Assembly (NCBI RefSeq): GCF_030814715.1
Contig: NZ_JAUSVO010000003.1
Span: 372,001 to 436,000, forward strand
Origin: Kaistia dalseonensis
Lineage (GTDB): Bacteria; Pseudomonadota; Alphaproteobacteria; Rhizobiales; Kaistiaceae
Reading direction: 5' to 3'
DNA length: 64,000 nucleotides
Shown: in pieces, positions 3,977 through 45,104 of the stretch
Numbering within the stretch: position 1 is the stretch's first letter
How the letters are laid out: every line of letters begins with the position of its first letter
Notes under the pieces: model-generated
Databases searched by the model: none
The model's input: the letters and a program-made list of their open reading frames with translations, nothing else
Told to the model about the DNA's origin: nothing
Program-made: the position numbers and the translations under genes

Positions 3977-4906
3977 TCACGGCCCGAAGATCGACCAGTC
4001 CATGGCTTTCGCCAGCCGCTCCAGCGCGAGCGAGCCGAGAAGCGAATTGCCGACCTTGTTCAATCCCGGCGACCAGACGGCAATCGACGCCTTGCCCGGC
4101 ACGATCGCCAGAATGCCGCCGCCGACGCCGCTCTTGCCGGGAATGCCGACCCGGAATGCGAATTCGCCCGATCCATCATAATGGCCGCAGGTCAGCATCA
4201 ACGCGTTGATGCGGCGCGCGCGCTCGCTTGAGACCACCTTGATGCCGGTCAGCGGATGGCGGCCCTGGGTGGCGAGAAAGCTGCCGGCCGTCGCAAGCTG
4301 GCGGCAGTTCATGGCGATCGCGCATTGATGGAAGTAGACCCCGGTCGTCATCTCGACCGGATGATGCAGATTGCCGAACGCTTTCATGTAATTCGCGAGC
4401 GCGCGATTGCCGAAGCCCGTTTCCTCCTCGGAGCGGGCCACCGCATTGTCGATATAGATCCCCTCATCATCGGCGAGCGAGCGCATGAAGCGCAGGATCT
4501 GGCCGATCGCTTCGCGCGGCTTGTGTCCGGCGAGGACGACATCGGTGACGACGATGGCGCCGGCATTGATCAGCGGGTTGCGCGGTATGCCGTGCTCGTG
4601 TTCGAGCTGGACGATCGAATTGAACGCATTGCCCGATGGCTCGCGCCCAACGCGCTTCCAGAGCGAATCGCCGACCTGGCCGAGCGCCATGGTCAGCGTG
4701 AACACCTTGGAGACGCTCTGGATCGAAAACGGCGCATCGGCGTCGCCGGCGCCGTAGAGCTGGCCGTCATTGGTCAGCACGGCGATGCCGAACTGGTTCG
4801 GGTCCACCTTGGCGAGCTGCGGAATATAATGGGCGACATGGCCGCGCTCGGTCATGGAGGCCATGGACGCGGCGATTTCGTCGAGGACGGTCTGCAGTTC
4901 GGGCAT
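3977..4906 (-). CDS. glsA: Glutaminase
   Basis: A 309-residue serine-dependent glutaminase (L-glutamine to L-glutamate plus ammonia, cytoplasmic). The family motif [10 protein letters not shown] contains the catalytic Ser-Lys pair (S-x-x-K), followed by [28 protein letters not shown] and [12 protein letters not shown]. Length matches the usual 305-310 residues when started at the ATG at 4906 ([11 protein letters not shown]). The frame stays open to a GTG at 4948, with no better ribosome site. The gene follows the PdhS-like kinase on the same strand after 115 bp and converges on the CPT-like gene with an 18-bp gap. Confidence 0.93.
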
Positions 4907-31616: not shown

Positions 31617-32614
31617 CGCGCCGCTCCCCGGTTGCGCCGCCCGAGCCAGTTCATGAACTGGCTGGAGAAGGGCGACTGGATCACCAGGATGAGCGTGATC
31701 ATGCCGGCCTTGACGACGAGGTTGAACTCCGGCGGGAAGCCGGAAACGAGGATGCCGGTGTTCATCGCCTGGATGATCAGCGCACCAACGACCGACATGG
31801 CGATGGAAAACCGTCCGCCGAGCAGCGAGGTCCCGCCGATGACGGCGGCGAGGATCGCATCGAGCTCCAGCCAAAGACCCGCATTGTTGGCATCGGCGCC
31901 ATGGATGTCGGCGGTCACGATCAGGCCGGCGATCGCGGCGCAGAGGCCGCTCAGCGCATAGACGACGATCAGCAGCAGGCGGCTGCGAATGCCGGCGAGC
32001 GTCGCGGCCGAGCGATTGACGCCGACGGCCTCGATGAAGAGCCCGATCGCCGTCTTGCGCACCGCGAGCGTGACGAGCACCAGCAGGGTGAAGGCGATGA
32101 CGACCGGCATGGGAAAGCCGAACAGCGAGCCGGTTCCGATGAAGATCAGAGCCGGATCAGAGAAGGTGACGATCGAGCCTTCCGTGATCAATTGCGCGAT
32201 GCCACGGCCGGCAACCATCAAGACCAGCGTCGCGATGATCGGCTGGATGTCGAGCAGGGCGACCAGTATGCCGTTCCAGAGGCCGCAGAGGAGTCCGACC
32301 GCGAGGGCGGCCACAATCGCGAGCGCCGTGGGATAGCCGGCCACGACCAGCGTCGCCGCGACCGCGCCGGCCATCGCCATCACCGCGCCGACGGAAAGGT
32401 CGACGCCCTTGGTGGCGATGACCGCCGTCATGCCGATCGCGAGGATCGCCACCGGCGCGCCGCGATTCAGCACGTCGATCAGGCTACCGAACAGGCGGCC
32501 ATCCTGCCACTCGATCTTGAAGAAGCCGGGGAAGAGCAGCCAGTTCAGCAGCAGGACGCCCACAAGCGCGACGGTCTGCGTATTGACGAGGCGGCCGAAA
32601 GCGAGCCGGTTCAT
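31613..32614 (-). CDS. ytfT: Sugar ABC transporter permease, YtfT type
   Basis: A 333-residue permease. N-terminal span VALVGVLLLNWLLF, then GMTAVIATKGVDLSVGAVMAMAGAVAA, an alternative to the GGIDLSVG motif of the partner, and LDAILAAVIGGTSLLGGRFSIAMSVVGALI. YtfT-type subunits carry this KGVDLSVG variant. It overlaps the ATPase gene upstream (4 bases) and the YjfF gene downstream (4 bases). Confidence 0.9.
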   Translation of the reverse strand: MNRLAFGRLVNTQTVALVGVLLLNWLLFPGFFKIEWQDGRLFGSLIDVLNRGAPVAILAIGMTAVIATKGVDLSVGAVMAMAGAVAATLVVAGYPTALAIVAALAVGLLCGLWNGILVALLDIQPIIATLVLMVAGRGIAQLITEGSIVTFSDPALIFIGTGSLFGFPMPVVIAFTLLVLVTLAVRKTAIGLFIEAVGVNRSAATLAGIRSRLLLIVVYALSGLCAAIAGLIVTADIHGADANNAGLWLELDAILAAVIGGTSLLGGRFSIAMSVVGALIIQAMNTGILVSGFPPEFNLVVKAGMITLILVIQSPFSSQFMNWLGRRNRGAAR

Positions 32615-34125
32615 GCCGCCTTCTCCCCATGCGTGGCGATCGCCTGCACGATGACGCCGGGACTGATATCCTCGCCGCGCAATTCGGCGACCATTTCCCG
32701 GTCGCGCATGACGACGATGCGCGAGGAATAGGCGACGACCTCGTCGAGCTCTGACGAGATGACGACGAGCGCCATGCCATCGTCGCGCAGGCGGTTGATA
32801 GTGCGGACGATCTCGGCATGGGCGCCGACATCGATGCCGCGGGTTGGCTCGTCGAGGATGAGGAAGGCCGGATCGGTGGCGAGCCAGCGGGCGAGGATGA
32901 CCTTCTGCTGGTTGCCGCCGGAAAGCAGCTTCACCGGCATGTCGAGCGAGGCGGCGCGGATATCCATCGCCTCGCCGAACTGGCCGGCGAGATCGAGCTG
33001 TTCGTCGCGGTTCAGCGCGCGGAACCAGCCGAGCTTGCCCTGCAGCGCGATGACGATGTTCTCGCGCACGGAGAGTTCGCCGAAGATGCCATCCGCCTTG
33101 CGATCCTCCGGACAGAAACCGAAGCCGTGCTTGATCGCGTCGACGGCGGTTTTGATCGCAACCGGCCGGCCATTGAGCGTGGCCGTTCCCTGGTCGGCGG
33201 GATCGATGCCGAACATGATGCGCGCCATCTCGGTCCGCCCGGAGCCGAGCAGCCCGGCGACACCGATCACCTCTCCCTTGTGGATCGTGAGCGAGAAGGG
33301 ATGGACGCTGCGCTTCTTGCCGTAGCCCTCATAGTCGATCAGCACATCCGTGACCGGCCGTTCGGTCTTGAGGCTGGTCGAGCCGGAAAAGGCGATGTCC
33401 TTGCCGAGCATCTTGCGCACGAGCTCGGTGCGGGTGAGTTCGTCGAGACGACGCGTATCGATCAGCTTGCCGTTGCGCAGGATGGTGACGCGGTCGGCGA
33501 GCGCGAAGACCTGATCGAGGAAATGGGTGATGAAGACGATCGCGAGCCCGTCGCGCTTCAGGCCCGCGACGACCTCGAACAGGCGCTGGACTTCGTCGCG
33601 ATCAAGGCTCGCCGTCGGCTCGTCCAGGATCAGCACCTTGCCGGAAAGCTGGACGGCGCGCGCTATCGCCACGATCTGCTGCACGGCGACGGAATGGGTG
33701 CCGAGTTCGCTGGACGGATCGATGCCGAGCCCGTAGCGCTGCAGTAGCACGCGCGCCTCGCGATCCATGCGGCGCCGATCGACCAAGCCGAACCGCGTCG
33801 GCTGATGGCCGAGGAAGAGGTTTTCAGCCACCGATCGGTTCGGCAGCAGGTTCACTTCCTGGTAGACCGCGCCAATGCCGAAGGACTGAGCGTGCAGCGG
33901 GCTGTTCAGCACCACCTCCTCGCCATCGACGAGGATCTTGCCGCCATCCGGCTGGTAGGCGCCGGTGAGAATCTTGATCAAAGTGGACTTGCCGGCCCCG
34001 TTCTCGCCGAGCAGGGCGTGGACTTCGCCGGGCAGCAGCCCGAATTCGACCGCATCGAGCGCCGTGTGATTGCCAAAAATCTTGGAAACCCCACGCGCCT
34101 CCATCCTGAAGGCCGTCTGCTCCAC
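32611..34125 (-). CDS. ytfR: Sugar ABC transporter ATPase, double-domain, YtfR type
   Basis: A 504-residue ATPase with two nucleotide-binding domains, as in RbsA/AraG/YtfR. Domain 1: Walker A GENGAGKST, a degenerate signature region SVAVQQIVAIARAV, Walker B LILDEPTASLD. Domain 2: LLGSGRTEMARIMFG (degenerate Walker A, usual for this class), signature LSGGNQQKVILARWL, Walker B LILDEPTRGIDVG. It starts at GTG 34125 with GGGGGCGAG just upstream; an ATG at 34104 is possible. Confidence 0.9.
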   Translation of the reverse strand: MEQTAFRMEARGVSKIFGNHTALDAVEFGLLPGEVHALLGENGAGKSTLIKILTGAYQPDGGKILVDGEEVVLNSPLHAQSFGIGAVYQEVNLLPNRSVAENLFLGHQPTRFGLVDRRRMDREARVLLQRYGLGIDPSSELGTHSVAVQQIVAIARAVQLSGKVLILDEPTASLDRDEVQRLFEVVAGLKRDGLAIVFITHFLDQVFALADRVTILRNGKLIDTRRLDELTRTELVRKMLGKDIAFSGSTSLKTERPVTDVLIDYEGYGKKRSVHPFSLTIHKGEVIGVAGLLGSGRTEMARIMFGIDPADQGTATLNGRPVAIKTAVDAIKHGFGFCPEDRKADGIFGELSVRENIVIALQGKLGWFRALNRDEQLDLAGQFGEAMDIRAASLDMPVKLLSGGNQQKVILARWLATDPAFLILDEPTRGIDVGAHAEIVRTINRLRDDGMALVVISSELDEVVAYSSRIVVMRDREMVAELRGEDISPGVIVQAIATHGEKAA

Positions 34126-34165
34126 CTCGCCCCCCTGTCACCGATCACCGTTCACGCATGGCTAT

Positions 34166-34194
34166 GGCCTCGCCGGCGCGATGCCGGCGAGGCC
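34166..34194 (-). repeat. Hairpin between ytfQ and ytfR
   Basis: Perfect 12-bp stem GGCCTCGCCGGC/GCCGGCGAGGCC with a 5-nt loop. It lies in the 86-bp gap after ytfQ and has no T-tract in either direction. Such hairpins after a binding-protein gene usually stabilise that part of the message, giving excess binding protein. Confidence 0.7.
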
Positions 34195-34211
34195 GAGATC
34201 AGGCTACCCGA

Positions 34212-35174
34212 TCAGTAGCCGAGACCCTTGCGTGCATCATACTCGCCCTGGGGATTATCCGCCGGGGTATAGAGCTTCGATTCGGTGATGATGAACTTCG
34301 GCGGAACCGTGCCGTCCTTCTTGTAGGCAGCGAGCGCATCGAGAGCAGGGCCGGCCATGTTCGGCGTCAGCTCGACAGTGGCGTTCGCCTCGCCCGCCAC
34401 CATGGCGGCGAAGATATCCGGCACGCCGTCGATCGAGACGACGAGAATGTCGGTGCCCGGCTTCAGGCCGGCATCCTTGATCGCCTGGATGGCGCCGACC
34501 GCCATGTCGTCATTATGCGCATAGACGGCGCAGATGCCCTTGCCGCCATTCTCGGCCTTCAGGAAGCCTTCCATCACTTCCTTGCCCTTCGAGCGGGTGA
34601 AGTCACCCGTCTGGCTGCGGACGATGGAGATGTTGTTGTGGCCGGCGATCGCCTCCTCGAAGCCCTTCTTGCGGTTGATGGCCGGCGTCGAGCCGACCGT
34701 GCCCTGAAGCTCGACGACCTTGCAGTCCTTGTCCTTGACGGCGCCGACCAGCCAGTCGCCGGCGACCTTGCCTTCCTTGACCTGATCGGATGCGACGGAG
34801 GTCAGATAGAGATCCTGCGAGGCATCGACACCGCGATCGAGCAGGATCACGGGGATCTTGGCTTCCTTCGCTTCAGTCAGGACGTCGTCCCAGCCGGTGG
34901 CAACGACGGGCGCAACCAGGATCGCGTCGACGCCCTGGGCGATGAAGCCACGGATCGCCTTGATCTGGTTTTCCTGTTTCTGCTGTGCGTCGGCGAATTT
35001 CAGCGTGATGCCACGCTTCTCGGCCTGCTGCTTGGTGACCGAAGTCTCGGCGGCGCGCCAGCCGGATTCCGAGCCGATCTGCGAGAAGCCGATGGTCATG
35101 TCGGCCGCCATCGCCGACGAAGACAAGGCGGTAGCGATGCTCGCCGCGAGGGCAAGCTTCTTGAAATAGGTCAC
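34212..35174 (-). CDS. ytfQ: Sugar ABC transporter substrate-binding protein, YtfQ type
   Basis: A 320-residue periplasmic binding protein (Peripla_BP_4). Signal peptide at 1-24 (LALAASIATALSSSAMA). The mature start ADMTIGFSQIGSESGWRAAET and FADAQQKQENQIKAIRGFIAQGVDAILVAPVV are typical of YtfQ, which binds galactofuranose in E. coli. The ligand may be another furanose, e.g. arabinofuranose, given the GH51 and GH172 genes in the window. The start is GTG at 35174 with GGGAGGAAATC upstream, giving almost the same length as E. coli YtfQ; the frame runs further upstream without a better start. Confidence 0.9.
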   Translation of the reverse strand: MTYFKKLALAASIATALSSSAMAADMTIGFSQIGSESGWRAAETSVTKQQAEKRGITLKFADAQQKQENQIKAIRGFIAQGVDAILVAPVVATGWDDVLTEAKEAKIPVILLDRGVDASQDLYLTSVASDQVKEGKVAGDWLVGAVKDKDCKVVELQGTVGSTPAINRKKGFEEAIAGHNNISIVRSQTGDFTRSKGKEVMEGFLKAENGGKGICAVYAHNDDMAVGAIQAIKDAGLKPGTDILVVSIDGVPDIFAAMVAGEANATVELTPNMAGPALDALAAYKKDGTVPPKFIITESKLYTPADNPQGEYDARKGLGY

Positions 35175-35231
35175 GATTTCCTCCCTTAGCCGCGAGCGTT
35201 CCTCCCTCGGCGGCATGAGAGTCGATACCAT

Positions 35232-35244
35232 TAGTACTATTATA
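35232..35244 (-). promoter_or_regulatory. ytfQ promoter -10 with adjoining palindrome
   Basis: On the minus strand a perfect TATAAT (35239-35244) is followed at once by TAGTACTA (35232-35239) and then TGGTAT (35225-35230), about 65 bp before the ytfQ start. The -35 is poor. The palindrome position over the start site suits repression, probably by the operon's own GntR protein (inference). Confidence 0.5.
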
Positions 35245-35432
35245 TGTAAATACTGCCCCGGCGCAGTGAATAGCACCGTGAATGGCGGGAACCGGCCGAT
35301 CCGGGCCGATGGCTCCAACCCACACTGTCATGATATCGGGCCTGCGCTCAACGAAGGCGCGAGACAATGTCTGGCACACGTGCTTTCAAAGCGGCCGGCA
35401 CGATCTGTCTTCGTCGAAGCTGAGGCGGCGTA

Positions 35433-36353
35433 TCAGCCGCCATTGCCACCGCCGCGCGGCGTCGAAAGCCAGGGATAGGAGAAATCGAGATAGGCATCGG
35501 CGAGTTCGCCGGCCACGGCGCGGCACTGATGCGTGACGCCGGCGATGAGGGCCTCGATCAGGCCGAGGATCGCCGTATCGGAGGTGGAGCTGTACTGGCG
35601 GGCCGCGCGGACATAGAGCGTGAGATCACCAAAGGCTGCGAGCGGCGAATTCTGGTTGTCGGTGATCGCCAGCACGCGGAGGCCGCGCTGCCGGACATAA
35701 TGGGTCAGTTCGACCGTATCCTTGAGATAGCGGGGAAAGGCGATCGAGATGACGAGGTCTTCGTCGCCGAAGCGATAGAGCTGCCGCGCCGCGCCGGCAG
35801 CGCCCCCGGCATTCTCCACCATGCGGACATTGCAGCCGGCGAGTTCGAGGCCATTGGCGAGCAATTCCGCCAGGCTTCCCGCCCTGTCGAAACCGATGAT
35901 GAAGATCTTGCGTGCCTGCGCGATCATGGTGACGGCCTGCGCGCAGCGCTCGTCGTCGAGATTGAGGATCGTCGCCTTCAGGTTCTCGATATCCTCCTCC
36001 AGCGAGGCGACCAGAACCTCGCGCGCGGTCGATTCCTCCGACAGCTTCCGCTTCAGCCGGTCATCCGGCGACAGGACGGATTCAAAGCCCCGGATCAGTT
36101 CCTGCCGGAACTGCGCATAGCCGTCGAAACCGATCGTCCGGGCGAAGCGGTTCGCCGTCGCGACCGAGACGCCCGACGCCGCGACCGTGTCGTTGATGCT
36201 CATGCGCGCGATGCGCAGCGGCTCGGCCAGCACGAAATCCGCGAAGGTTCGCAGCGCCTGCGACAGCTCCGGATAGGCTGCGGCGATGCGTTCCGCCACG
36301 ATGGCGCTGGCGGGGAGCATCGGAACCGCTGGCTTGCCGAATTCCCGGCTCAT
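35433..36353 (-). CDS. MurR/RpiR-family regulator
   Basis: A 306-residue regulator with an N-terminal HTH_6 domain (about 10-85; FADFVLAEPLRIARMSINDTVAASGVSVATANRFARTIGFDGYAQFRQ) and a C-terminal SIS domain (about 130-270; ARKIFIIGFDRAGSLAELLANGLELAG, VISIAFPRYLKDTVELTHYVRQRG). SIS domains bind phosphosugars or nucleotide-like ligands. It is divergent from the NMT1-type transporter operon with an 86-bp gap carrying two dyads, so it is the obvious local regulator. The ATG at 36353 is preceded by AGAGGCGG. Confidence 0.9.
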   Translation of the reverse strand: MSREFGKPAVPMLPASAIVAERIAAAYPELSQALRTFADFVLAEPLRIARMSINDTVAASGVSVATANRFARTIGFDGYAQFRQELIRGFESVLSPDDRLKRKLSEESTAREVLVASLEEDIENLKATILNLDDERCAQAVTMIAQARKIFIIGFDRAGSLAELLANGLELAGCNVRMVENAGGAAGAARQLYRFGDEDLVISIAFPRYLKDTVELTHYVRQRGLRVLAITDNQNSPLAAFGDLTLYVRAARQYSSTSDTAILGLIEALIAGVTHQCRAVAGELADAYLDFSYPWLSTPRGGGNGG

Positions 36354-36367
36354 CGTATACCGCCTCT

Positions 36368-36413
36368 TGTAATCATAATTACATATGGTAGCGTATCTGT
36401 AACAAAAATACAG
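36368..36413. promoter_or_regulatory. Two candidate RpiR operators in the divergent gap
   Basis: TGTAAT-N4-ATTACA (36368-36383) and CTGTA-N7-TACAG (36397-36413) share a TGTA/TACA core, are 16 bp each or close to it, and fill the AT-rich gap between rpiR and the binding-protein gene. Assignment to RpiR is by position. Confidence 0.5.
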
Positions 36414-36439
36414 GGGGAGGAAGGCCAAGGGAACCACTC

Positions 36440-37483
36440 ATGCGGATGGCTCCAATGACCTTCTCGAATTCGTTCAGACCAAACCGTCGCGCCGTGCTGG
36501 CAGCCGGCATCGGTGCAGCAGCATTCGGCCTTGGCGGCAGGCCCGCTTTCGCCGCCGAAAGCCTGCCGATCACAACGGCATTCGGCTGGATTTCCAATGT
36601 CGAATTCGCGGGCTTCTGGATCGCACTCGACAAGGGTTACTTCGCCGCCGAAGGAGTTGACTCGAAGTTCCTGCCCGGCGGGCCGAACGCGCCCGACGCC
36701 CTCGTCACGCTCGTCGCCGGAAGCGCCGATGTCGCGAGCCCCGACTGGCTGCCCTTCCTCGAGGCGGTCGACAAGGGCAACGATCTGGTGATCCTCGGCG
36801 CCAGCTGGGCGAAGAGCCCGGCCGCCCTGCTCTCGCTTGCCAAGCGGCCGATGCGCGAGCCGAAGGATCTGGTCGGCGGCAAGTTCCTGATCCAGAGCCC
36901 CAATAATCGCCAGATCATCGACACCGTGCTGACCAAGGCCGGCCTGCCGCTCGAATATGAGACGGTGCCGACCGGCTTCTCGCCCGAGCCGCTGCTGAAT
37001 GGCGATGGCGACGGCTATTTCTGCTTCGCAACCAACCAGCCGATCACGCTGGAAAAGATGGGCATGGTCCGCGACAAGGATTTCTTCGTCACCCTCTGGG
37101 ACGACCTCGGCTTCAAGGTGGTCCAGGGCTATATTGTGGTGAAGCGCGAATTCCTCGAGAAACACCGCCCGCAGGTGGTCGGCTATCTGAAGGCGCTCAT
37201 CAAGGGCTGGAAGGACAATGCGGCCGATCCCAGTCTCGCGGTCAGGCTCGTCACCGAGAATTACGGCGCCGATCTCGGCCTCGATCCGGCCCAGCAGCTG
37301 CGCCAGAACGAGTTGCAGATCCCGCTGATCGCCGCCAACGGCCCCAACAAATTGCTTTGGTTCGATACCGCGCTCGTCTCCGGGACGATGACGGATGTCG
37401 CCAAGATCTCCGGTCGCACGGTGCCCGCGCTTTCGAAGATCGTCGATCTCGGTCCGCTCGACGAAGCGCTGAAAGCGAGCTGA
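36440..37483 (+). CDS. NMT1/THI5-like ABC substrate-binding protein (first)
   Basis: A 347-residue exported binding protein of the NMT1/THI5-like class. A twin-arginine-like leader (RPNRRAVLAAGIGAAAFGLGG) is cleaved near AFAAE. The mature part starts ITTAFGWISNVEFAGFWIALDKGYFAAEGVD, the pattern of binding proteins for pyrimidine or thiamine-precursor-like ligands (ThiY, RibY). GFSPEPLLNGDGDGYFCFATNQPITLEKMG is shared with the next gene's product. The ligand is unknown; a nucleobase-like compound fits the operon. AAGGGA lies upstream of the first ATG, and two further in-frame ATG codons occur within 20 bases. Confidence 0.87.
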   Translation: MRMAPMTFSNSFRPNRRAVLAAGIGAAAFGLGGRPAFAAESLPITTAFGWISNVEFAGFWIALDKGYFAAEGVDSKFLPGGPNAPDALVTLVAGSADVASPDWLPFLEAVDKGNDLVILGASWAKSPAALLSLAKRPMREPKDLVGGKFLIQSPNNRQIIDTVLTKAGLPLEYETVPTGFSPEPLLNGDGDGYFCFATNQPITLEKMGMVRDKDFFVTLWDDLGFKVVQGYIVVKREFLEKHRPQVVGYLKALIKGWKDNAADPSLAVRLVTENYGADLGLDPAQQLRQNELQIPLIAANGPNKLLWFDTALVSGTMTDVAKISGRTVPALSKIVDLGPLDEALKAS

Positions 37484-37545
37484 CACATCGACCACGCTCA
37501 CGCCTCCATCAAAAACGCCCGAAACGGGCCTTCCAGGGAAAACTC

Positions 37546-38577
37546 ATGACCATCGATCGCCGCTCCTTGCTCAAATCGCTTGCCGTCGGCGCCATGGCAG
37601 CGCCGATCCTGCCGAGCCTCTTCTCCAGCGCCGCGTCGGCGGCGGAACTGGTCAAGCTCAAGGTCCAGTTGGGCTGGGTGTCCAATGTCGAGCACGCCGC
37701 GCACTGGATCGCGCTCGACAAGGGCCTGTTCACGGCGGCGGGGCTCGATGTCACCGTCTCGCCCGGCGGGCCGAACGCGCCGGATCCGCTGGTGGTCGTG
37801 GCGGCCGGCGACGCGCAGATCGGCTACACCTCATGGCTGCCCTTCCTCGATGCGGTGGCGCAGGGCAATGATTATGTGCTGACCGCAACCCTGTTCCAGT
37901 CCTCGCCACTCGGCATCATCTCGCTGAAGAAGAAGCCGATCCTGACGCCGAAGGATATTCTGGGTTCGAAGATCCTGGCCCAGGGACCGAACGAGAAGAC
38001 CTCGATCGAGGCGACGCTGGCGCTCGCCGGCCTCAAGACCGATGATTGGACCATGGTCCCGGCTGGCTTCTCGCCCGAGCCGCTCGTGGCCGGCGAAGGC
38101 GACGGCTATACGGCCTTTGCGACCAACCAGACCATCACGCTCGAAAAGATGGGCCTGAAGCGCGACGAGGACTTCTTCTTCCGCTCCTTCGACGAGCTCG
38201 GCTTCAAGAGCTATGCCGGCCTTCCGTTCGTCACGCGCCAGTTCCTCGCCGAGAACCGGCCGGCGATCGTCGCCTATATCCGCGCGCTGATCGCCGCCTC
38301 GAAGCTGAACGAAGCCGATCCCGCCTATGCCGCGAAGCTCGCCGTCGACACTTATGGCGCCGATCTCGGCCTCGATCTCGCGCAGCAGACGCGCCAGAAC
38401 GAGCTGCAGATCCCGATCATCCATCCCGGTATGAAGCCCGATTTCAAGCTCCTGTCGATGGATCGCGACTTGATGGCCGGCGACATGATGGCGGCCGCCA
38501 GGGCGACGGGCCGAACCAATTTGCCGGATATCGACAAAATCGTCGATTTTTCCGTCGTGACGGAAGCTCTGGGCTGA
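37546..38577 (+). CDS. NMT1/THI5-like ABC substrate-binding protein (second)
   Basis: A 343-residue paralogue of the preceding binding protein, beginning MTIDRRSLLKSLAVGAMAAP with a Tat-like leader cleaved near ASAAE. The same landmarks recur: LGWVSNVEHAAHWIALDKGLF, GGPNAPDPLVVVAAGDAQIGY, GFSPEPLVAGEGDGYTAFATNQTITLEKMG and a shared C-terminal DLGLDLAQQTRQNELQIPII. The pocket-lining first motif differs (EFAGF versus EHAAH), so the two may bind different but related ligands. AGGGAA precedes the start. A small GCCCG/CGGGC hairpin lies in the gap between the two genes. Confidence 0.87.
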   Translation: MTIDRRSLLKSLAVGAMAAPILPSLFSSAASAAELVKLKVQLGWVSNVEHAAHWIALDKGLFTAAGLDVTVSPGGPNAPDPLVVVAAGDAQIGYTSWLPFLDAVAQGNDYVLTATLFQSSPLGIISLKKKPILTPKDILGSKILAQGPNEKTSIEATLALAGLKTDDWTMVPAGFSPEPLVAGEGDGYTAFATNQTITLEKMGLKRDEDFFFRSFDELGFKSYAGLPFVTRQFLAENRPAIVAYIRALIAASKLNEADPAYAAKLAVDTYGADLGLDLAQQTRQNELQIPIIHPGMKPDFKLLSMDRDLMAGDMMAAARATGRTNLPDIDKIVDFSVVTEALG

Positions 38578-38581
38578 TCCG

Positions 38582-39373
38582 ATGAGCCTCGTTCCGGCGC
38601 CGGTCACGGCGATCCATCTCGATCATATCAGCAAGTCGTTCACCCTCGACGGCGGCGGCACCATCGCGGCCCTCGGCGAGGTGACGCTGAAGATCGACAA
38701 GGGCGAGTTCGTGGCCCTGCTCGGCCCCTCGGGCTGCGGCAAGAGCACGATCCTGCGCCTGGTCGCGGCACTCGAAGAGCCGAGTACCGGCGCTGTCACG
38801 ATCGAGGGCCGCGCGCCGGTCGAACTATCGCGCCAGCATAGGCTCGGCGTCGCTTTCCAGGACCACGCTCTGCTGCCCTGGCTCACCATCGCGCAGAATG
38901 TCGCTCTGCCCTACCAACTGGCCGGCAAGCCGGTCGACAAGGCCCGCGTCTCAGCGCTCATCGCGCTGGTCGGCCTTGCCGGTTTCGAGGCCGCGCGGCC
39001 GAAGCAACTTTCCGGCGGCATGCGCCAACGTGCCTCGATCGCCCGCGCGCTGGTGCTGAAGCCGGACGTGCTGCTGCTCGACGAACCGTTCGGCGCGCTC
39101 GATGCCGTCACGCGGCGGCAGATGAACGTCGAATTGCAGCGCATCTGGAGCGAGCAGCGCATCACGACGCTGCTCGTCACCCACGCGGTCGACGAGGCAT
39201 TGTTCCTGGCCGACCGCGTCGTCGTCATGACCGGACGACCGGGGAAGATCCTGAAGACGGTCGAAGTGCCCTTCGCCCGTCCGCGCCACCCCGACGTGAC
39301 CCGCGAGCCGCGCTTCCACGAACTCGTCGATGAACTCACGCTCGCACTCGAGCCGGCAGGAGGGCACGGATGA
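38582..39373 (+). CDS. ABC transporter ATPase (SsuB/TauB/ThiZ type)
   Basis: A 263-residue ATPase. Walker A GPSGCGKST, Q-loop VAFQDHALLPWLTI, signature [15 protein letters not shown], Walker B VLLLDEPFGALD, switch VTHAVDEALFLADRVVVM. This is the subgroup used by nitrate, sulfonate, taurine and pyrimidine importers. It starts 4 bp after the second binding protein and ends overlapping the first permease gene. A single ATPase serving two permeases and two binding proteins is consistent with a heterodimeric pore. Confidence 0.92.
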   Translation: MSLVPAPVTAIHLDHISKSFTLDGGGTIAALGEVTLKIDKGEFVALLGPSGCGKSTILRLVAALEEPSTGAVTIEGRAPVELSRQHRLGVAFQDHALLPWLTIAQNVALPYQLAGKPVDKARVSALIALVGLAGFEAARPKQLSGGMRQRASIARALVLKPDVLLLDEPFGALDAVTRRQMNVELQRIWSEQRITTLLVTHAVDEALFLADRVVVMTGRPGKILKTVEVPFARPRHPDVTREPRFHELVDELTLALEPAGGHG

Positions 39374-40125
39374 AGCATCGCCAGCGCATCCGCACCATCA
39401 CGCTCGGCGCGATCGGCATCGCGCTGTTTCTCGCACTTTGGGAACTGATCGGCATCCGGGGTTGGGCCGGTCTGACCTGGCCGCCGCTTTCGACCGTGCT
39501 CGCCTTCCTGTTCGATCCATCGCGCCGGCCTTTGTTCCTGCGCGCGATGACCGCGAGCTTTTCCATGATCGCATTTGGCTATGCGATCGGCCTGGTCCTC
39601 GGGCTTGCTGCGGCGGCGCTCGGCCATCTCGTGCCCCCGCTCCGGCCCGGCCTCGACCGGCTGGCGAGCATCATCCACGCGATCCCGACCATCGCGCTGG
39701 CGCCGCTTTTCATCGTGCTCTTGTCGCGCGAACTGACCGGCATGGCGATCGCCGCACTCGGCGTGTTCTTCGTGATCTATGTTTCGGCGACCTCCGGCCT
39801 TGCCGCAAGCAGCGCGGCGCATCGTGATCTGTTCCAGGTTTTCGGGACGTCGCGCCTAACGCAGCTTCGCCGCCTGGACATGCCCGCCGCCCTGCCCGCT
39901 CTGGTGAGCGGCATGAAATACGCCGTCCCCGCCGCCTTCATCGGCGCCATTCTCGGCGAATGGTTCGGATCGAGCCGCGGCCTCGGCCTGTTGATGGTCA
40001 GCGCCATGCAGAACTTCCAGATCCCGTTGCTCTGGAGCGCCGTGTTGATCGCCTCGACCGCCTCGCTACTGATCTTCGGCCTGATGAGCCTCGCCGAACG
40101 CCTCGCCTATGAGCGCTATCGATGA
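39370..40125 (+). CDS. ABC transporter permease (first of pair)
   Basis: A 251-residue inner-membrane permease (BPD_transp_1, SsuC/TauC type) with six predicted spans: 13-32, 58-80, 95-130, 135-155, 175-200, 215-240. The coupling loop is AAHRDLFQVFGTSRLTQLRRLDMPAALP. The start overlaps the ATPase stop (ATGA) and the stop overlaps the next start in the same way. Confidence 0.9.
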   Translation: MKHRQRIRTITLGAIGIALFLALWELIGIRGWAGLTWPPLSTVLAFLFDPSRRPLFLRAMTASFSMIAFGYAIGLVLGLAAAALGHLVPPLRPGLDRLASIIHAIPTIALAPLFIVLLSRELTGMAIAALGVFFVIYVSATSGLAASSAAHRDLFQVFGTSRLTQLRRLDMPAALPALVSGMKYAVPAAFIGAILGEWFGSSRGLGLLMVSAMQNFQIPLLWSAVLIASTASLLIFGLMSLAERLAYERYR

Positions 40126-40871
40126 CGAAAATGCTCAAGACCTTCGTTTCGCGCTATTGGGGCGTCGCGGGCGTGCTGCTGTTCTGGCAGGCCTGGGTGA
40201 CGATCACCGGCGTCAACAGCATCGTGGTGCCGCATCCGATCGACGTCGCACGCGATATCGTCACCGAGCCCGGCGTCTATCTGAGCAATGGCAGCCAGAC
40301 GTTGTTCCTCGCAGCCCTCGGCCTCGTGCTCGGCATGGCGCTCGGCACGCTGGTCGCCGTGCTCGCCTGGTCGTCCGACATATTGAGCGGCATACTGACG
40401 CCACTCGGCCTCGTCTTCTCCTCGGTCCCCGTGGTGGCGTTGATCCCGATCATCGCACGCCTGTTCGGCTATGACGTCAAAACCGTGCTCGCGATCGTCG
40501 TGATCATCTCGTTCTTCCCGGCCTTTGTCTTCACCTCGGCCGGGCTCAAGACCCTGCCGGCCGGCAGCGACGATCTCTTTCGGGTCTTCGGCGCCAGCCG
40601 CTGGACGCGCTTCGTGCGGCTGGTGCTGCCTTCGGCCGTGCCGAACTGGATGATCGCCTTCCGCCTCGCCGCGCCGCCAGCCGTGCTCTCGGCGATGGTG
40701 GCCGAGTTCCTGATGGGAACGTCGGGGCTCGGTTATCTCTTCCGCTCCGCCGCTTCCAACTTCCAGACCGACCGCGCCTTCGGCACCAGCGTGGTCGCGA
40801 CGATCATTTCGGTCATCTGTTTCGGCCTGGCGCTATCGGCCGAACGCGCCGTGCTGAAGCGCTGGACCTGA
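40122..40871 (+). CDS. ABC transporter permease (second of pair)
   Basis: A 249-residue permease similar in design to the preceding one, with coupling loop LPAGSDDLFRVFGASRWTRFVRLVLPSAVP and C-terminal EFLMGTSGLGYLFRSAA. Most SsuC-type importers use a homodimer of one permease, so two different permease genes in tandem suggest a heterodimer. Starts ATGA-overlapped with the first permease. Confidence 0.9.
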   Translation: MTKMLKTFVSRYWGVAGVLLFWQAWVTITGVNSIVVPHPIDVARDIVTEPGVYLSNGSQTLFLAALGLVLGMALGTLVAVLAWSSDILSGILTPLGLVFSSVPVVALIPIIARLFGYDVKTVLAIVVIISFFPAFVFTSAGLKTLPAGSDDLFRVFGASRWTRFVRLVLPSAVPNWMIAFRLAAPPAVLSAMVAEFLMGTSGLGYLFRSAASNFQTDRAFGTSVVATIISVICFGLALSAERAVLKRWT

Positions 40872-41001
40872 CCCATTGCAAGGGCGACACCCGTCGCCCT
40901 TGATCCCGCATGACGCGACCCGGGCGGGCCGCGTTGAACCGCCGAAGTTCGCCGATCGCAAGACCGGACACCTTCGACCAACCCCGAAGGAAAGAGAAAA
41001 C

Positions 41002-41583
41002 ATGACGAAAGTGACGCTCGCCAAGGACCCCTGGCAGGATGTGAAGACGTGGCACGGCGTGCCGGCCGACGAGGTGATCTCCGGCCTGCAGAAGTGCCTG
41101 CGCCGCGGACTGGCCGAGAACGCGCTGCTCATCGCCTATGAGATGTACATCACCAGCCCGCAGCTGGAGCAGATGCTCTGGGACCGGCTGATGGTGATCT
41201 CGGTCGAGGATGTCGGCTTCGGCAACATGATGGCGCCGGTTCTGGTCGATACGCTCTATCGCAACCACACGCGCTATCCCCGCCCGATCGGCGACCGCTT
41301 CCTCTTCGCCGCGCATGCGATCCGCATCCTCGCCTCGAGCGCCAAGGACCGCACGACGGACGACATGGTCAACTGGGCCAAGCTCGAGATCGAGCGCCGC
41401 GACAAGGCGCCGCCGATCCCCGATTTCGCCATCGACATGCACACCAAGCGCGGCTGGGAAATGGGCCGCGGCTATGAGCATTTCATGAAAGAGGCCTCGC
41501 GGACCGAGAATGTCTCCAACGAGGTCGACCCGACCTATCGCGACCGCATCATGGCCGCGATCGAAGCCGGCGAGCTCAGCTGA
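41002..41583 (+). CDS. RarA/MgsA C-terminal-like protein, no ATPase domain
   Basis: A 193-residue soluble, helical protein. Residues about 20-115 (EVISGLQKCLRRGLAENALLIAYEMY, LWDRLMVISVEDVGFGN, FLFAAHAIRILASS) resemble the C-terminal oligomerisation/helical part of RarA/MgsA-type AAA+ proteins, but no Walker motifs are present. The tail has a conserved-looking DMHTKRGWEMGRGYEHFMKE. Function unknown. It lies between the transporter and the deoxyribosyltransferase, starting after AAGGAAAGAG, and likely belongs to the same transcript (130-bp gap). The RarA resemblance is by eye. Confidence 0.6.
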   Translation: MTKVTLAKDPWQDVKTWHGVPADEVISGLQKCLRRGLAENALLIAYEMYITSPQLEQMLWDRLMVISVEDVGFGNMMAPVLVDTLYRNHTRYPRPIGDRFLFAAHAIRILASSAKDRTTDDMVNWAKLEIERRDKAPPIPDFAIDMHTKRGWEMGRGYEHFMKEASRTENVSNEVDPTYRDRIMAAIEAGELS

Positions 41584-41584
41584 G

Positions 41585-42172
41585 ATGGCCGCGATGAAGG
41601 TCTATCTGGCCGGTCCAGACGTGTTCCTGAAGAATGGCCGCGAAGTGATCGCGGCCAAGCAGGAACTCACCCGCCGCTATGGCTTCGTGCCGAATGTCTG
41701 GATGGGCGAAGACGATGCGCCCCATTCGACGCCGTTCGCCTTCGGCCTCCACATCAGCGCCGCCAACGAGGCGGTGATGCGCGACAGCGACTTCATCATC
41801 GCCAACCTGACGCCGTTTCGCGGCATCAGCGCCGATGTCGGCACGGCCTATGAGCTCGGCTTCATGGTCGCGCATGGCAAGCCGGCCTTCGGCTATTCCA
41901 ATGACGGCCGGCTCTACGCCGAGCGGCTGACGGCGGATTACTACAAGGGCGCCGTCGCCAAGGCCGATGACGGCATGATGCGCGGACCGGACGGGCTGAT
42001 GGTCGAGAACAACGACATGGGCGACAACCTCATGCTCGATGGCGGCATCGAGCATATGGGCGGCGTCTTCATTCGCCGTTCCGTCGCGCCCGAGCACCTG
42101 CTCGACGATCTCGGTCCGTTCGAGGAATGCCTCGCCGCCGCCCGTGCAAGGCTGCTCGGCGTCGCCGCCTGA
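41585..42172 (+). CDS. Nucleoside 2-deoxyribosyltransferase-like protein
   Basis: A 195-residue protein of the nucleoside 2-deoxyribosyltransferase superfamily (PF05014 type). MKVYLAGPDVFLKNG at the N-terminus, then DSDFIIANLTPFRGISADVGTAYELGFMVAHGKPAFGYS, where the Asp-rich strand and the GTAYELGFM Glu correspond to the family's active-site region. Members swap bases between deoxynucleosides or hydrolyse the N-glycosidic bond. With the importer it suggests nucleoside or nucleobase salvage (inference). The ATG at 41585 is two bases after the preceding stop; an in-frame ATG at 41594 is possible. Confidence 0.8.
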   Translation: MAAMKVYLAGPDVFLKNGREVIAAKQELTRRYGFVPNVWMGEDDAPHSTPFAFGLHISAANEAVMRDSDFIIANLTPFRGISADVGTAYELGFMVAHGKPAFGYSNDGRLYAERLTADYYKGAVAKADDGMMRGPDGLMVENNDMGDNLMLDGGIEHMGGVFIRRSVAPEHLLDDLGPFEECLAAARARLLGVAA

Positions 42173-42202
42173 GACGATCATCGCCTGCTCGACGAAAGGA
42201 AA

Positions 42203-42229
42203 GGTGACGGCGCGACCAGCGCCGTCACC
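42203..42229. terminator. Terminator between convergent deoxyribosyltransferase and mhpR genes
   Basis: Perfect 11-bp stem GGTGACGGCGC/GCGCCGTCACC with a 5-nt loop. On the minus strand it is followed by TTTCCTTT, fitting termination of mhpR; it also lies 31 bp after the plus-strand gene. Confidence 0.75.
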
Positions 42230-42237
42230 GACACGGC

Positions 42238-43056
42238 CTATGGCTCCTGCGGCAGTTCGCTCCCCGCCGGCGCCTCGGCGGATGATGTCCGCGCGATGGC
42301 CTCTTCGGCCGATTGGACACAGGCCCTGAGGGCCGGCAGATAGCGCTCCGCCGCATCCTCGATGCTCATGGCGCTGCGGAAGAACAACACGTTGACCGAG
42401 CCCAGCACATGCTGCGGGCCACGGATCGGCAAGGCGATGGCGCTGATCGCGCTATCCGATCCGCCAATGCTCCAGGCATAGCCGCGGCGCTGCACATCCG
42501 CGATGGCGCGATCGATCGTGCGCCGATCGGCGGCCGCCTCGCTGTCCACCGTGCCGGCACGCGCGGTGATCTCGAGCATGGTGGTTCGCTCGGCCTCGCT
42601 CGCCGCCGAAAGCAGCGCCAGCCCGAGCGCGCTGCGCGTCAGCGGACGGCGCCGGCCGATCATGGAGCGATGGACGGAGAACGGGCTGAAGCGATGGGTC
42701 GTCTCGCGTATGACCATCCAGCCCTTCTCGAAGGTCGCGAAATCGCTGGGCCACAGCACCTGCGGCATCAGCTTGCCGAGCTCGGGCGCAATGATCGCGG
42801 CGATCCAGTCCGTATCGGTGAAGCCCTCGCTGAGCTGGCGCACGGCCGGAAGCAGCCCGTAGCTGTCGTCAGCCGCGCGCTGGGCCACCAGGCCGCGCTT
42901 GGCGAGGGTCGCGAGCAGCCGGTAGACCGTCGTCCGGTCGATCCCTGTCGCCTCCGCCAGTTCCGATGGGCGCGCATGACCGCGCTGGTTCAGCTCCATC
43001 AGGATGTCGAGCCCGCGTTCCAGTGCGCGGACATTGCGATAGGACGAGTCGGACAT
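42238..43056 (-). CDS. mhpR: IclR-family regulator, MhpR type
   Basis: A 272-residue IclR regulator. N-terminal winged HTH (about 10-70; ERGLDILMELNQRGHARPSELAEATGIDRTTVYRLLATLAKRGLV), C-terminal IclR effector domain (about 85-255). It is divergent from mhpB with a 157-bp gap that contains a 17-bp dyad of MhpR type. In E. coli MhpR activates the mhp catabolic genes with 3-(3-hydroxyphenyl)propionate as inducer. The ATG at 43056 is taken; a GTG directly before it is an alternative (GAGG upstream serves both). Confidence 0.85.
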   Translation of the reverse strand: MSDSSYRNVRALERGLDILMELNQRGHARPSELAEATGIDRTTVYRLLATLAKRGLVAQRAADDSYGLLPAVRQLSEGFTDTDWIAAIIAPELGKLMPQVLWPSDFATFEKGWMVIRETTHRFSPFSVHRSMIGRRRPLTRSALGLALLSAASEAERTTMLEITARAGTVDSEAAADRRTIDRAIADVQRRGYAWSIGGSDSAISAIALPIRGPQHVLGSVNVLFFRSAMSIEDAAERYLPALRACVQSAEEAIARTSSAEAPAGSELPQEP

Positions 43057-43066
43057 CACGGACCTC

Positions 43067-43083
43067 TGTGCACCTAGTGCACA
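43067..43083. promoter_or_regulatory. MhpR-type operator
   Basis: TGTGCAC-CTA-GTGCACA, a perfect 7-bp-arm dyad. It resembles the E. coli mhp operator as I recall it (built on GGTGCAC/GTGCACA). A weak -35/-10 pair (TTGTGA at 43099, 17 bp, AATAGC at 43122) would place the dyad near -58 relative to the start, the position of an IclR-type activator site. It also lies just before the mhpR start, allowing autoregulation. Confidence 0.7.
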
Positions 43084-43213
43084 TTTCTAACAGCTCCATT
43101 GTGACACGTCATGCCCTTGTGAATAGCTCCCTTCCAGCACGGCCGGGGAGGACGTCGATCGCACAGCGATTATCGATGCCCGGCCGACGACATCGAACAG
43201 GGAGAATAAGCCG

Positions 43214-44161
43214 ATGATCGCGGGCGCCGTCTGCCTCAGCCATTCACCGCTTATGGATCACAATCGCGCCGATGCCGGCGTCGAAGCCCGCTTCAACGCG
43301 GCGCTGAAATCTGCGTCGCGCAAGATCGCCGAGTGGGAGCCCGATCTCTGCGTCGTCTTCTTCCCGGATCATTTCAACGGCTTCTTCTACGACCTGATGC
43401 CGGCATTCTGCATCGGTGCTGCCGCCAATTCGATCGGCGATTTCGGCTCCGTCCCCGGCCAGCTCGATGTTCCCGAGGATATTGCCGTCGACATCGCCAC
43501 CTCCTGCACCCGCTCCGGCGTCGATATTGCGCTGTCCTATCGCATGCAGGTCGATCATGGCGCCGTGCAGCCGGTAGAACTGCTCTCGGAATTTCATTCG
43601 CTGACGCGCATCGTCCCGATCTTCATCAACTGCGCAGCGCCGCCGCGCCCGACCTTCGCGCGGGTCCGCGCGCTCGGCGAGGCGGTCGGCGTCTGGGCCA
43701 ACCGGACCAGCCAGCGCGTGCTGTTCCTGGCCTCGGGCGGCCTGTCGCATGATCCGCCGATCCCGGCCATGAAGGGCGCGACGCCGGATGTGCGCGCCAA
43801 GCTGATCGACGGCCGCGCCGCGAGCCACGCGGCCCGCCTGTCGCGCCAGACGCGGATCCACGGCGCCGGCCATGCCTATGTCTCAGGCACCAGCCCGCTC
43901 CGTCCGCTCAACCCGACCTGGGATCGCGACTTCCTCGATCATCTGACGCGTGAAGACCTGACGGTCGGCGACGACTGGCGCGACGACGACATCACCGAGG
44001 CCGCAGGACGCGGCGCGCATGAAGTGCGCAGCTGGATCGCGGCCTTCGGTGCCCTGTCGGCGGCCGGCCACTTCCAGACAACCGTCGAATTCTACGAGCC
44101 CGTTCCGGAATGGATCACCGGCATGGCGATCGCGACCGCGACGCCGCGTTCGGCCACCTGA
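43214..44161 (+). CDS. mhpB: 2,3-dihydroxyphenylpropionate 1,2-dioxygenase
   Basis: A 315-residue class III extradiol dioxygenase (LigB fold, Fe(II)). It opens 3-(2,3-dihydroxyphenyl)propionate by meta cleavage. Landmarks are AVCLSHSPLM with the N-terminal His, PDHFNGFFYDLMPAFCIG, YRMQVDHGAVQPVE and FLASGGLSHDPP. Length equals E. coli MhpB (314). The start follows AGGGAGAATAAGCCG. It is the first gene of the mhp operon, whose order is B, C, A, binding protein, D, F, E, then the ABC importer. Confidence 0.95.
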   Translation: MIAGAVCLSHSPLMDHNRADAGVEARFNAALKSASRKIAEWEPDLCVVFFPDHFNGFFYDLMPAFCIGAAANSIGDFGSVPGQLDVPEDIAVDIATSCTRSGVDIALSYRMQVDHGAVQPVELLSEFHSLTRIVPIFINCAAPPRPTFARVRALGEAVGVWANRTSQRVLFLASGGLSHDPPIPAMKGATPDVRAKLIDGRAASHAARLSRQTRIHGAGHAYVSGTSPLRPLNPTWDRDFLDHLTREDLTVGDDWRDDDITEAAGRGAHEVRSWIAAFGALSAAGHFQTTVEFYEPVPEWITGMAIATATPRSAT

Positions 44162-44192
44162 TCCCAAGCCTATCAAGAAGAGGAGCCAATTC

Positions 44193-45104
44193 ATGTCCGA
44201 GGCAGCGAAGCCGGCACCGTTCCAGAGCGTCTGGGGCGATCTTCGCGGTGTTTCCTTCTCGCAGGGCTTCATCGAGGCCAACGGTGTGAAGACCCGCTAT
44301 CTGCATTCGGGCCGCACGGGCCTGCCGCCGCTCATCCTGCTGCACGGCGTCGGCGGCCATGCCGAGGCCTATGTCCGCAATCTCGGCTCGCATGGCGAGT
44401 TGTTCGATGTCTGGGCGATCGACATGCTCGGCCATGGCTGGACCGACAAGGCCTCGCATGATCTCGAGGTGAAGCACTATGTCGAGCACGTGCTCGCCGT
44501 CATGAAGGTCCTCGGCTTCGAGAAGGCGTCCTTCAGCGGTGAATCGCTCGGCGGCTGGGTCGCGTCGCGCATCGCCGCCGACCATCCCGAGAAGGTGGAC
44601 CGCCTGGTTCTCAACACGGCCGGCGGCTCGCAGGCCGACCCGGTGGTGATGGAGCGCCTGAAGACGCTCTCGCTGCGCGCCGCCAGCGATCCGACCTGGG
44701 AGTTCATCAAGGCCCGCGTCGAATGGCTGATGGCCGACAAGTCCAAGGCCTATGACGATCTCGTCGCGACACGCCAGGCGATCTACGCCCAGCCCGGCAT
44801 GGCCGAGGCCATGAAGCACAACATGATCCTGCAGGAGATGGAGGTCCGGAAGCGGAACCTCATGTATCCGGCCGACTATGGGCGCATCAAGGCGCCGACG
44901 CTGGTTCTATGGACCTCGGATGATCCGACGGCCGATGTGAGCGAAGGCCGCCGCATCGCATCCATGATCCCGGGTGCGCTGTTCACGGTCATGGAAGGTT
45001 GTGGTCACTGGCCGCAATTCGAGGATGCCGAGACGTTCAACCGGATTCATCTCGGCTTCCTCAAGGGAGAAACGGTTCCGGAGGCACAGCCCGTCGCCGC
45101 ATAG
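44193..45104 (+). CDS. mhpC: Meta-cleavage product hydrolase (alpha/beta fold)
   Basis: A 303-residue alpha/beta hydrolase. It hydrolyses the ring-opened 2-hydroxy-6-oxonona-2,4-diene-1,9-dioate to 2-hydroxypenta-2,4-dienoate and succinate. HGVGGHAE oxyanion loop, nucleophile Ser118 in GESLGG, an Asp in WTSDDPT (243/244) and His272 in GCGHWPQFE. It is a little longer than E. coli MhpC. The ATG at 44193 has AAGAGGAGCC upstream; the open frame continues farther but only by overlapping mhpB. Confidence 0.92.
   Translation: MSEAAKPAPFQSVWGDLRGVSFSQGFIEANGVKTRYLHSGRTGLPPLILLHGVGGHAEAYVRNLGSHGELFDVWAIDMLGHGWTDKASHDLEVKHYVEHVLAVMKVLGFEKASFSGESLGGWVASRIAADHPEKVDRLVLNTAGGSQADPVVMERLKTLSLRAASDPTWEFIKARVEWLMADKSKAYDDLVATRQAIYAQPGMAEAMKHNMILQEMEVRKRNLMYPADYGRIKAPTLVLWTSDDPTADVSEGRRIASMIPGALFTVMEGCGHWPQFEDAETFNRIHLGFLKGETVPEAQPVAA

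Follow-up and report, generated by a model that had tools for sequence, protein, structure and literature searches.

In the genome of Kaistia dalseonensis (5.18 Mb), an operon was analysed within a window of 64,000 nucleotides (contig NZ_JAUSVO010000003.1, positions 372,001 to 436,000). An RpiR/MurR-type regulator gene is divergent from a run of seven genes, which code for two solute-binding proteins of the NMT1/THI5 type (BP1 and BP2), the ATPase and the two permeases of an ATP-binding cassette (ABC) importer, a protein of 193 amino acids resembling the C-terminal domain of RarA, and a protein of the nucleoside 2-deoxyribosyltransferase family (NDT). The RarA-tail-like protein is designated MGSC here. 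The RpiR-controlled operon is likely to serve the uptake and the N-glycosidic cleavage or salvage of (deoxy)nucleosides or similar base-containing compounds, and among nucleosides the substrates are probably deoxynucleosides. This reading rests on the retention of NDT behind MGSC, on the salvage genes in related operons and in other MGSC clusters, on a contrast in nucleoside markers, and on the predicted model of BP2. Gene content, conservation, context and predicted folds are direct results of the analysis.

For the mechanism, we infer that the two binding proteins would feed the single ABC importer, and that NDT would break or exchange the N-glycosidic bond inside the cell, freeing the base and the (deoxy)ribose. 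In relatives, the cluster also contains genes for a deaminase-type amidohydrolase, for a nucleoside hydrolase and for enzymes of sugar-oxidising types. MGSC, with its RarA tail fold, may assist nucleoside salvage as a soluble, conserved protein or act in it as an enzyme, binding a nucleoside, a base or a sugar phosphate. The RpiR protein probably senses a sugar phosphate derived from the sugar half.

Conservation of the operon and recurrence of MGSC

By tblastn, 63 distinct MGSC loci of 4.8-24.6 kb were compared; repeats (L050-L052, L060-L064), L028 (36% identity, partial, in a 367-aa frame) and the window itself were set aside. RpiR, a binder, the ATPase, both permeases, MGSC (at least 57% identity) and NDT were identified together in 13 other loci: L029 (Faunimonas), L038, L039 and L041 (Devosia), L047 (Aquimixticola, RpiR 46%), L110-L116, which are near copies from seven genomes of one family, and L119. 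These conserved operons occur in several families of the order and in one Paracoccaceae genome. NDT lies directly 3' of MGSC in all 13. The first-pass annotation regarded its assignment as refutable by conservation data in which the last two genes lack linkage to the importer, and such a separation was not found in these loci. The co-occurrence which it proposed to search for holds for the 13 full operons and fails for four diverged operons of the same genus, which are devoid of NDT. One further locus (L107) contains MGSC and a short NDT match of about 78 residues by a diverged NMT1 importer, where RpiR was not found by tblastn. MGSC and NDT are each also found apart from this importer. In the tree, the window, L029 and L119 cluster (100/99), other operons of the same kind lie elsewhere, and the starred branches require the context to have changed at least twice.

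Additional enzymes were identified in several of these operons. L029 and L119 both have BP1 and BP2 together with an amidohydrolase, which is 75% identical between the two loci and belongs to a group that includes 5'-deoxyadenosine, 8-oxoguanine and guanine deaminases, with scores under all equivalog cut-offs. A more distant amidohydrolase (28-29%) is located nearby in L115 and L116. In L119, a nucleoside hydrolase gene (307.5 bits) adjoins RpiR, and genes for a short-chain dehydrogenase, a cupin and an amidase follow NDT. In L029, a gene of the SMP-30/gluconolactonase type lies between permease 2 and MGSC. The dehydrogenase and the lactonase would suit an oxidation of the released deoxyribose; this idea is speculative, since the two genes are present in different genomes.

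MGSC was further identified in clusters with other importers. Twenty alphaproteobacterial clusters of a LacI/GATase type, four of which reach few genes because their contigs end, contain LacI (18), a GATase1-like protein (18), an adenine-deaminase-like protein (17), a Bmp binder (16), a guanine-deaminase-like amidohydrolase (16), a nucleoside hydrolase (15), a creatininase-family protein (12) and double cytidine-deaminase-like genes (10). The enzyme families were read on L043, none being above an equivalog cut-off. The GATase1-like protein (PF07090) is encoded at 9240-9989 in L043, where it scores 333.8 bits, and in its relatives. In L055 (Chloroflexota) and L057 (Actinomycetota), MGSC is accompanied by Bmp, a nucleoside hydrolase and an amidohydrolase. 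Bacillota contain three MGSC loci with a nucleoside phosphorylase, two of them also with a phosphopentomutase-type gene. In these two (L056, 5895-14048; L058, 4472-14803), both genes accompany the order EIIC-PRD-EIIB-EIIA-MGSC of a phosphotransferase system (PTS), while the third, L122, has the order LacI-MGSC-phosphorylase-Bmp-ATPase. DeoD passes its curated cut-off in L056 and L122, and phosphopentomutase in L058, the other copies resting on Pfam; a guanine-deaminase-like gene of L058 reaches 345.8 of 375.4 bits. It is possible, from these neighbours, that the lactose/cellobiose-family PTS of L056 and L058 carries nucleosides or nucleoside glycosides. Enterococcus plasmids and a Cetobacterium plasmid show the order RpiR/SIS-MGSC-EIIC, and a PTS in L059 and a GH4 gene in L120 are found without a phosphorylase.

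Across the loci, bond cleavage is thus assigned to NDT, to a hydrolase or to a phosphorylase, and the class of importer varies as well, while MGSC is constant. That MGSC recurs and the importer is exchangeable goes beyond the first-pass annotation. Any nucleoside marker was present in 38 of the 63 MGSC loci and in 0 of 20 control stretches, and N-glycosidic enzymes in 34 of 63 against 0 of 20, a contrast to be read as linkage and not as a calibrated probability, because the markers were seeded, the loci are related and the lengths unequal. The controls, of 19 kb each, were taken mostly about 0.2 Mb away on 20 MGSC-holding contigs and sample part of the phyla.

The distribution of MGSC is scattered. 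In a class sample of 385 genomes, a single-sequence search gave the window and one partial, doubtful match only. Among 40 relatives, MGSC was present in 10 of 13 genomes of the same genus and in none of 27 others. A profile search at E 1e-15 matched 24 of 397 genomes of the order; two of the matches are partial, in frames of 445 and 416 aa, and probably represent RarA itself, so that 22 remain. In the phylum of a Lachnospiraceae locus, 2 of 398 genomes matched, that genome included. Scans gave 37 loci on genome contigs and 18 plasmid records at 28-51% identity. For phages, 62 records matched, and among the 20 matches listed one, from an unverified faecal scaffold, was at 50% and the others were at 32%; a search of viral contigs with exact patterns from a single MGSC sequence gave no match. 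MGSC as a viral gene was tentatively rejected on these grounds; in the one phage locus examined (L073, Microbacterium phage), a distant MGSC-like protein at 3986-4606 lies by genes for a glycosyltransferase and a UDP-glucose dehydrogenase. Another distant MGSC-like protein (L071, 7845-8630, Halobaculum plasmid) lies by nucleotide-sugar genes. In six loci of the same genus (L017-L022), a second kind of MGSC (61-63%) adjoins a gene for a 234-aa protein, with no salvage markers around; the 234-aa protein, searched with its copy in L051, had no Pfam or NCBIfam match.

MGSC and its relation to RarA

MGSC scores 24.2 bits on MgsA_C (PF12002), its sole Pfam match at E 0.01. Because this stays below the Pfam cut-off of 27, "RarA-tail-like" is a fair wording. 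Of six MGSC matches tested against this cut-off, five pass (27.2-35.2) and one fails (26.4). Among solved sequences, it matches 2r9g (E 0.0012). An AlphaFold2 model from a 25-row alignment has a mean predicted local distance difference test score (pLDDT) of 93.5, and in a Foldseek search of the PDB the first 18 matches are, without exception, RarA tails or RarA. The fold is that of the C-terminal domain of RarA/MgsA/WRNIP1, with template modelling scores by query of 0.57-0.63 for 2r9g and by target of 0.87-0.89 for 8g28. The likeness to a RarA C-terminus noted from the letters alone is thus borne out by the predicted fold.

In contrast to RarA/MgsA, MGSC has no AAA+ domain ahead of the tail and is located in transport and salvage operons. 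For a comparison, 22 of 24 MGSC rows (without the phage and haloarchaeal rows) and 10 of 11 RarA loci were used, L171 being left out for having no frame with the searched P-loop letters. Both groups have S27, K31, R34, R62, E69, D70, G72 and K115 in common, whereas D23, R35, E47, W60, R117 and G151 are present in at least 21 of the 22 MGSC rows and in none of the 10 RarA sequences. Across all 24 MGSC rows, including the phage and haloarchaeal relatives, 13 positions do not vary, and at 10 of these the residue is polar or charged. In 10 of 10 MGSC genomes, a frame of 422-560 aa elsewhere gives a further MgsA_C match, this one strong (160-252 bits), and P-loop letters were found in nine of these 10 RarA-size frames. 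Since MGSC has its own charged signature and a RarA-size gene is kept separately, it represents a separate subfamily of standalone proteins and is not a RarA. The charged invariants suggest a predicted ligand pocket, and several invariants of helix 22-34 lie on one face of the model, consistent with such a pocket. Among the matches listed by a literature search, the passages retrieved gave no account of standalone MgsA_C proteins or of this gene set.

Importer, NDT and regulator

The eight genes span 35433-42172, and the first-pass annotation had the gene set, the divergent RpiR and the outer coordinates exactly right, as seen from open frames, strands and family searches (Table 1). Its ATGA overlaps through the transporter part exist at two junctions only (39370 and 40122), while BP2 and the ATPase gene are separated by 4 bases. 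MGSC and NDT are 1 base apart. The gap of 130 bases between permease 2 and MGSC contains a hairpin, and a region of 140 nt around it has a folding z of -3.49 against 200 shuffles; perhaps the hairpin sets the levels of transporter and enzyme apart.

Table 1. Features of the operon region (window positions)
Feature	Position	Strand	Basis
RpiR/MurR-type regulator (HTH_6 + SIS)	35433-36353	-	Pfam
Conserved promoter/operator-like element TTGnAA..TTACATATGCTAGC..TGTAACAAAAA	36367-36415	.	Intergenic alignment
NMT1/THI5-type solute-binding protein BP1	36440-37483, alternative start 36455	+	NMT1 profile, 94 bits
NMT1/THI5-type solute-binding protein BP2	37546-38577	+	NMT1 profile, 97.6 bits
ABC importer ATPase	38582-39373	+	Open frame, profiles
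ABC permease 1	39370-40125	+	ATGA overlap with ATPase
ABC permease 2	40122-40871	+	ATGA overlap with permease 1
Hairpin, 10-bp stem, no T run, between permease 2 and MGSC	40879-40902	+	Folding
MGSC, standalone RarA/MgsA C-terminal-domain-like protein, 193 aa	41002-41583	+	Profile, model, family survey
Nucleoside 2-deoxyribosyltransferase-family protein NDT	41585-42172, alternative start 41594	+	PF05014, 90.5 bits

BP1 and BP2, which are 50% identical, both exceed the PF09084 cut-off of 20.5. The nearest solved sequence to BP1 is the formyl-aminopyrimidine binder 3ix1 (E 8e-8). For the predicted model of BP2 (pLDDT 89), the top fold matches are the thiamin-bound binder 4nmy (E 1.2e-21), 3ix1 (6.9e-20) and Thi5, with SsuA proteins lower, from 1e-13. 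Because the BP2 model and the BP1 sequence are nearest to thiamin and pyrimidine binders, a flat heteroaromatic compound is favoured as the predicted ligand. On the SsuA subfamily profile, which has a cut-off of 163.5, BP1 and BP2 reach no more than 31.6 and 38.3 bits. A sulfonate or nitrate importer was rejected as improbable on SsuA and nitrate profiles under their cut-offs and on the lower rank of the SsuA folds. Importers of the NMT1/THI5 class include the ThiXYZ and RibXY kind and SsuABC; the window importer has the same binding-protein family and fold and the same ABC layout, and differs in its two binders, two permease genes, RpiR, MGSC and NDT. Bmp/PnrA-type nucleoside ABC importers, found with salvage enzymes, are the setting of MGSC relatives and would share the task proposed here, but the window binders are of the NMT1 class and not of the Bmp class.

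NDT passes the PF05014 cut-off of 28.8 and matches 6qai and 2a0k, with YxAGPxVF and DxGTxxE stretches aligning to both. D66, D81, E87 and N145 (numbered from 41594) are invariant in eight of eight aligned NDT sequences; the DxGTxxE part aligns with 2a0k and 6qai, and the Asn falls outside both alignments. The C-terminal Asn is presumably equivalent to that of the family, and the catalytic roles of Glu/Asp and Asn are likewise assumed. By these alignments, NDT probably retains the acidic residues of the PF05014 family. With about 195 aa it has an extra C-terminal part compared to 6qai and 2a0k (156-161 aa), and it is here in an operon with an importer. Within the order, genes of the NDT family were identified in 40 of the 297 genomes searched. 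A second NDT in the window genome (76% identity) has the gene order NDT-amidase-nucleoside hydrolase. In two genomes of the order (L156, 7997-9297; L157, 9002-10323), an NDT-family gene is followed by an FtsJ-like methyltransferase gene.

The regulator passes the cut-offs for HTH_6 (48.5 against 28.3 bits) and SIS (66.7 against 25), and 13 other loci have an RpiR match (46-70% identity) that diverges from their importer genes. The element between RpiR and the binder gene has 19 invariant columns across 13 of 14 stretches, the window among them; L047 gave no clear match and was excluded. Inside it, a perfect palindrome, TGTAAT-CATA-ATTACA, is present at 36368-36383. A search for TGTAAT-N4-ATTACA with up to 2 mismatches gave 1 match in the window against 0.12 expected. 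The palindrome resembles HexR sites, but the passages available of PMC3223726 print no motif, so that a HexR-like operator is not claimed.

Two neighbouring clusters flank the operon. Adjoining RpiR, at 32611-35225 on the minus strand, are genes of a galactofuranose-type ABC importer, with the binder at 591.8 bits on YtfQ (cut-off 510) and the ATPase at 755.4 on YtfR (cut-off 850). At 42238-45104, a gene for an IclR-type regulator is followed by a 3-carboxyethylcatechol 2,3-dioxygenase-like gene (384 bits, cut-off 291) and by a third frame resembling, as read from its sequence, an alpha/beta hydrolase; together these form a putative aromatic-degradation cluster.

Functional assignment and its alternatives

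In the first-pass annotation, the operon was proposed to import and salvage a nucleobase or nucleoside, the 193-aa protein acting as a partner, and this is supported by the linkage, by the salvage genes of relatives and by the BP2 model. Several observations weigh against it. The best NCBIfam match of the ATPase is a nitrate-importer subfamily (226.7 bits, under the cut-off of 291.8), and NMT1 proteins take varied ligands. NDT alone is no proof of nucleosides, because among 17 NDT loci away from MGSC (from at least 40 NDT loci) only two have such neighbours, one with a nucleoside hydrolase and one with adenine deaminase and amidohydrolase nearby. The window genome lacks a close orthologue of the amidohydrolase of L029 and L119, its best match being at 31%. 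The marker contrast is not an independent test, since the marker sequences were drawn from the MGSC loci themselves and near copies are frequent among the loci. No marker was present in 25 of the 63 loci (L017-L027, L032, L034, L046, L059, L065, L066, L068-L073, L109 and L120), of which L034, L046, L072 and L073 are short or cut; the 25 include the six same-genus loci with the 234-aa gene, three PTS loci and the four RpiR-NMT1-MGSC operons without NDT. These four (L023-L026, near copies) are diverged paralogous operons of the order RpiR-binder-MGSC-ATPase-permease, with MGSC placed between genes of the transporter. In L062, the same locus as L024, this paralogous operon is followed by a gene of 313 aa with a weak KDG-dehydratase likeness.

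The fold and sequence matches of the binders would also suit an import of a pyrimidine-type vitamin precursor or a flavin, of the thiamin, hydroxymethylpyrimidine (HMP) or riboflavin kind, which NDT and MGSC would then process. The BP2 matches are at about 20% identity only, and the enzymes beside the relatives belong to nucleoside and base catabolism. An upstream thiamin pyrophosphate (TPP) or flavin mononucleotide (FMN) riboswitch is an optional feature of thiamin and flavin uptake operons; a search of 35000-43000 gave no Rfam family at gathering scores, and therefore no curated riboswitch, so that a vitamin substrate is considered unlikely. Somewhat less likely still is a sugar or sugar acid as substrate, with the neighbouring nucleoside genes incidental and MGSC acting in sugar-phosphate metabolism. 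The RpiR/SIS and LacI regulators, the lactose/cellobiose-family EIIC by MGSC, the GH4 gene in L058 and L120, the lactonase-type gene in L029, the dehydrogenase in L119 and the KDG-dehydratase-like gene speak for it. It leaves NDT and the deaminases unexplained, and phosphorylase, phosphopentomutase, hydrolases and deaminases recur across phyla.

That MGSC is an inert structural relic of RarA, riding along with transport operons, is highly improbable. The tail of RarA is an oligomerising domain and MGSC has its fold, but the 13 mostly polar or charged invariants reach phage and haloarchaeal relatives, the signature of MGSC is absent from RarA, and a RarA-size gene is kept separately from it in every MGSC genome compared. 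A more tentative and less probable proposal under the preferred assignment to nucleoside salvage makes MGSC a novel protein of nucleoside catabolism, an enzyme or a ligand binder, which is built on the fold of the RarA tail and retained whether the importer is an NMT1-type ABC, a Bmp-type ABC or a PTS.

The uncharacterised MGSC family, found beside nucleoside-salvage genes in several bacterial phyla, thereby gains a concrete candidate pathway, a conserved operon and a predicted ligand class, and a nucleoside role is proposed for some NMT1-type importers and some PTS. If MGSC is such a protein of nucleoside catabolism, nucleosides or nucleoside glycosides would be the cargo of some PTS of the lactose/cellobiose family in Bacillota. 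For the RarA family of repair proteins, the molecular function "remains obscure" according to the passages available of PMC8735627. Should MGSC bind nucleosides, this small relative could offer a way to probe the residues conserved in the RarA tail; with MGSC as a protein of nucleoside catabolism, S27, K31, R34, R62, E69, D70 and K115 would mark a nucleoside or nucleotide pocket in RarA/WRNIP1.

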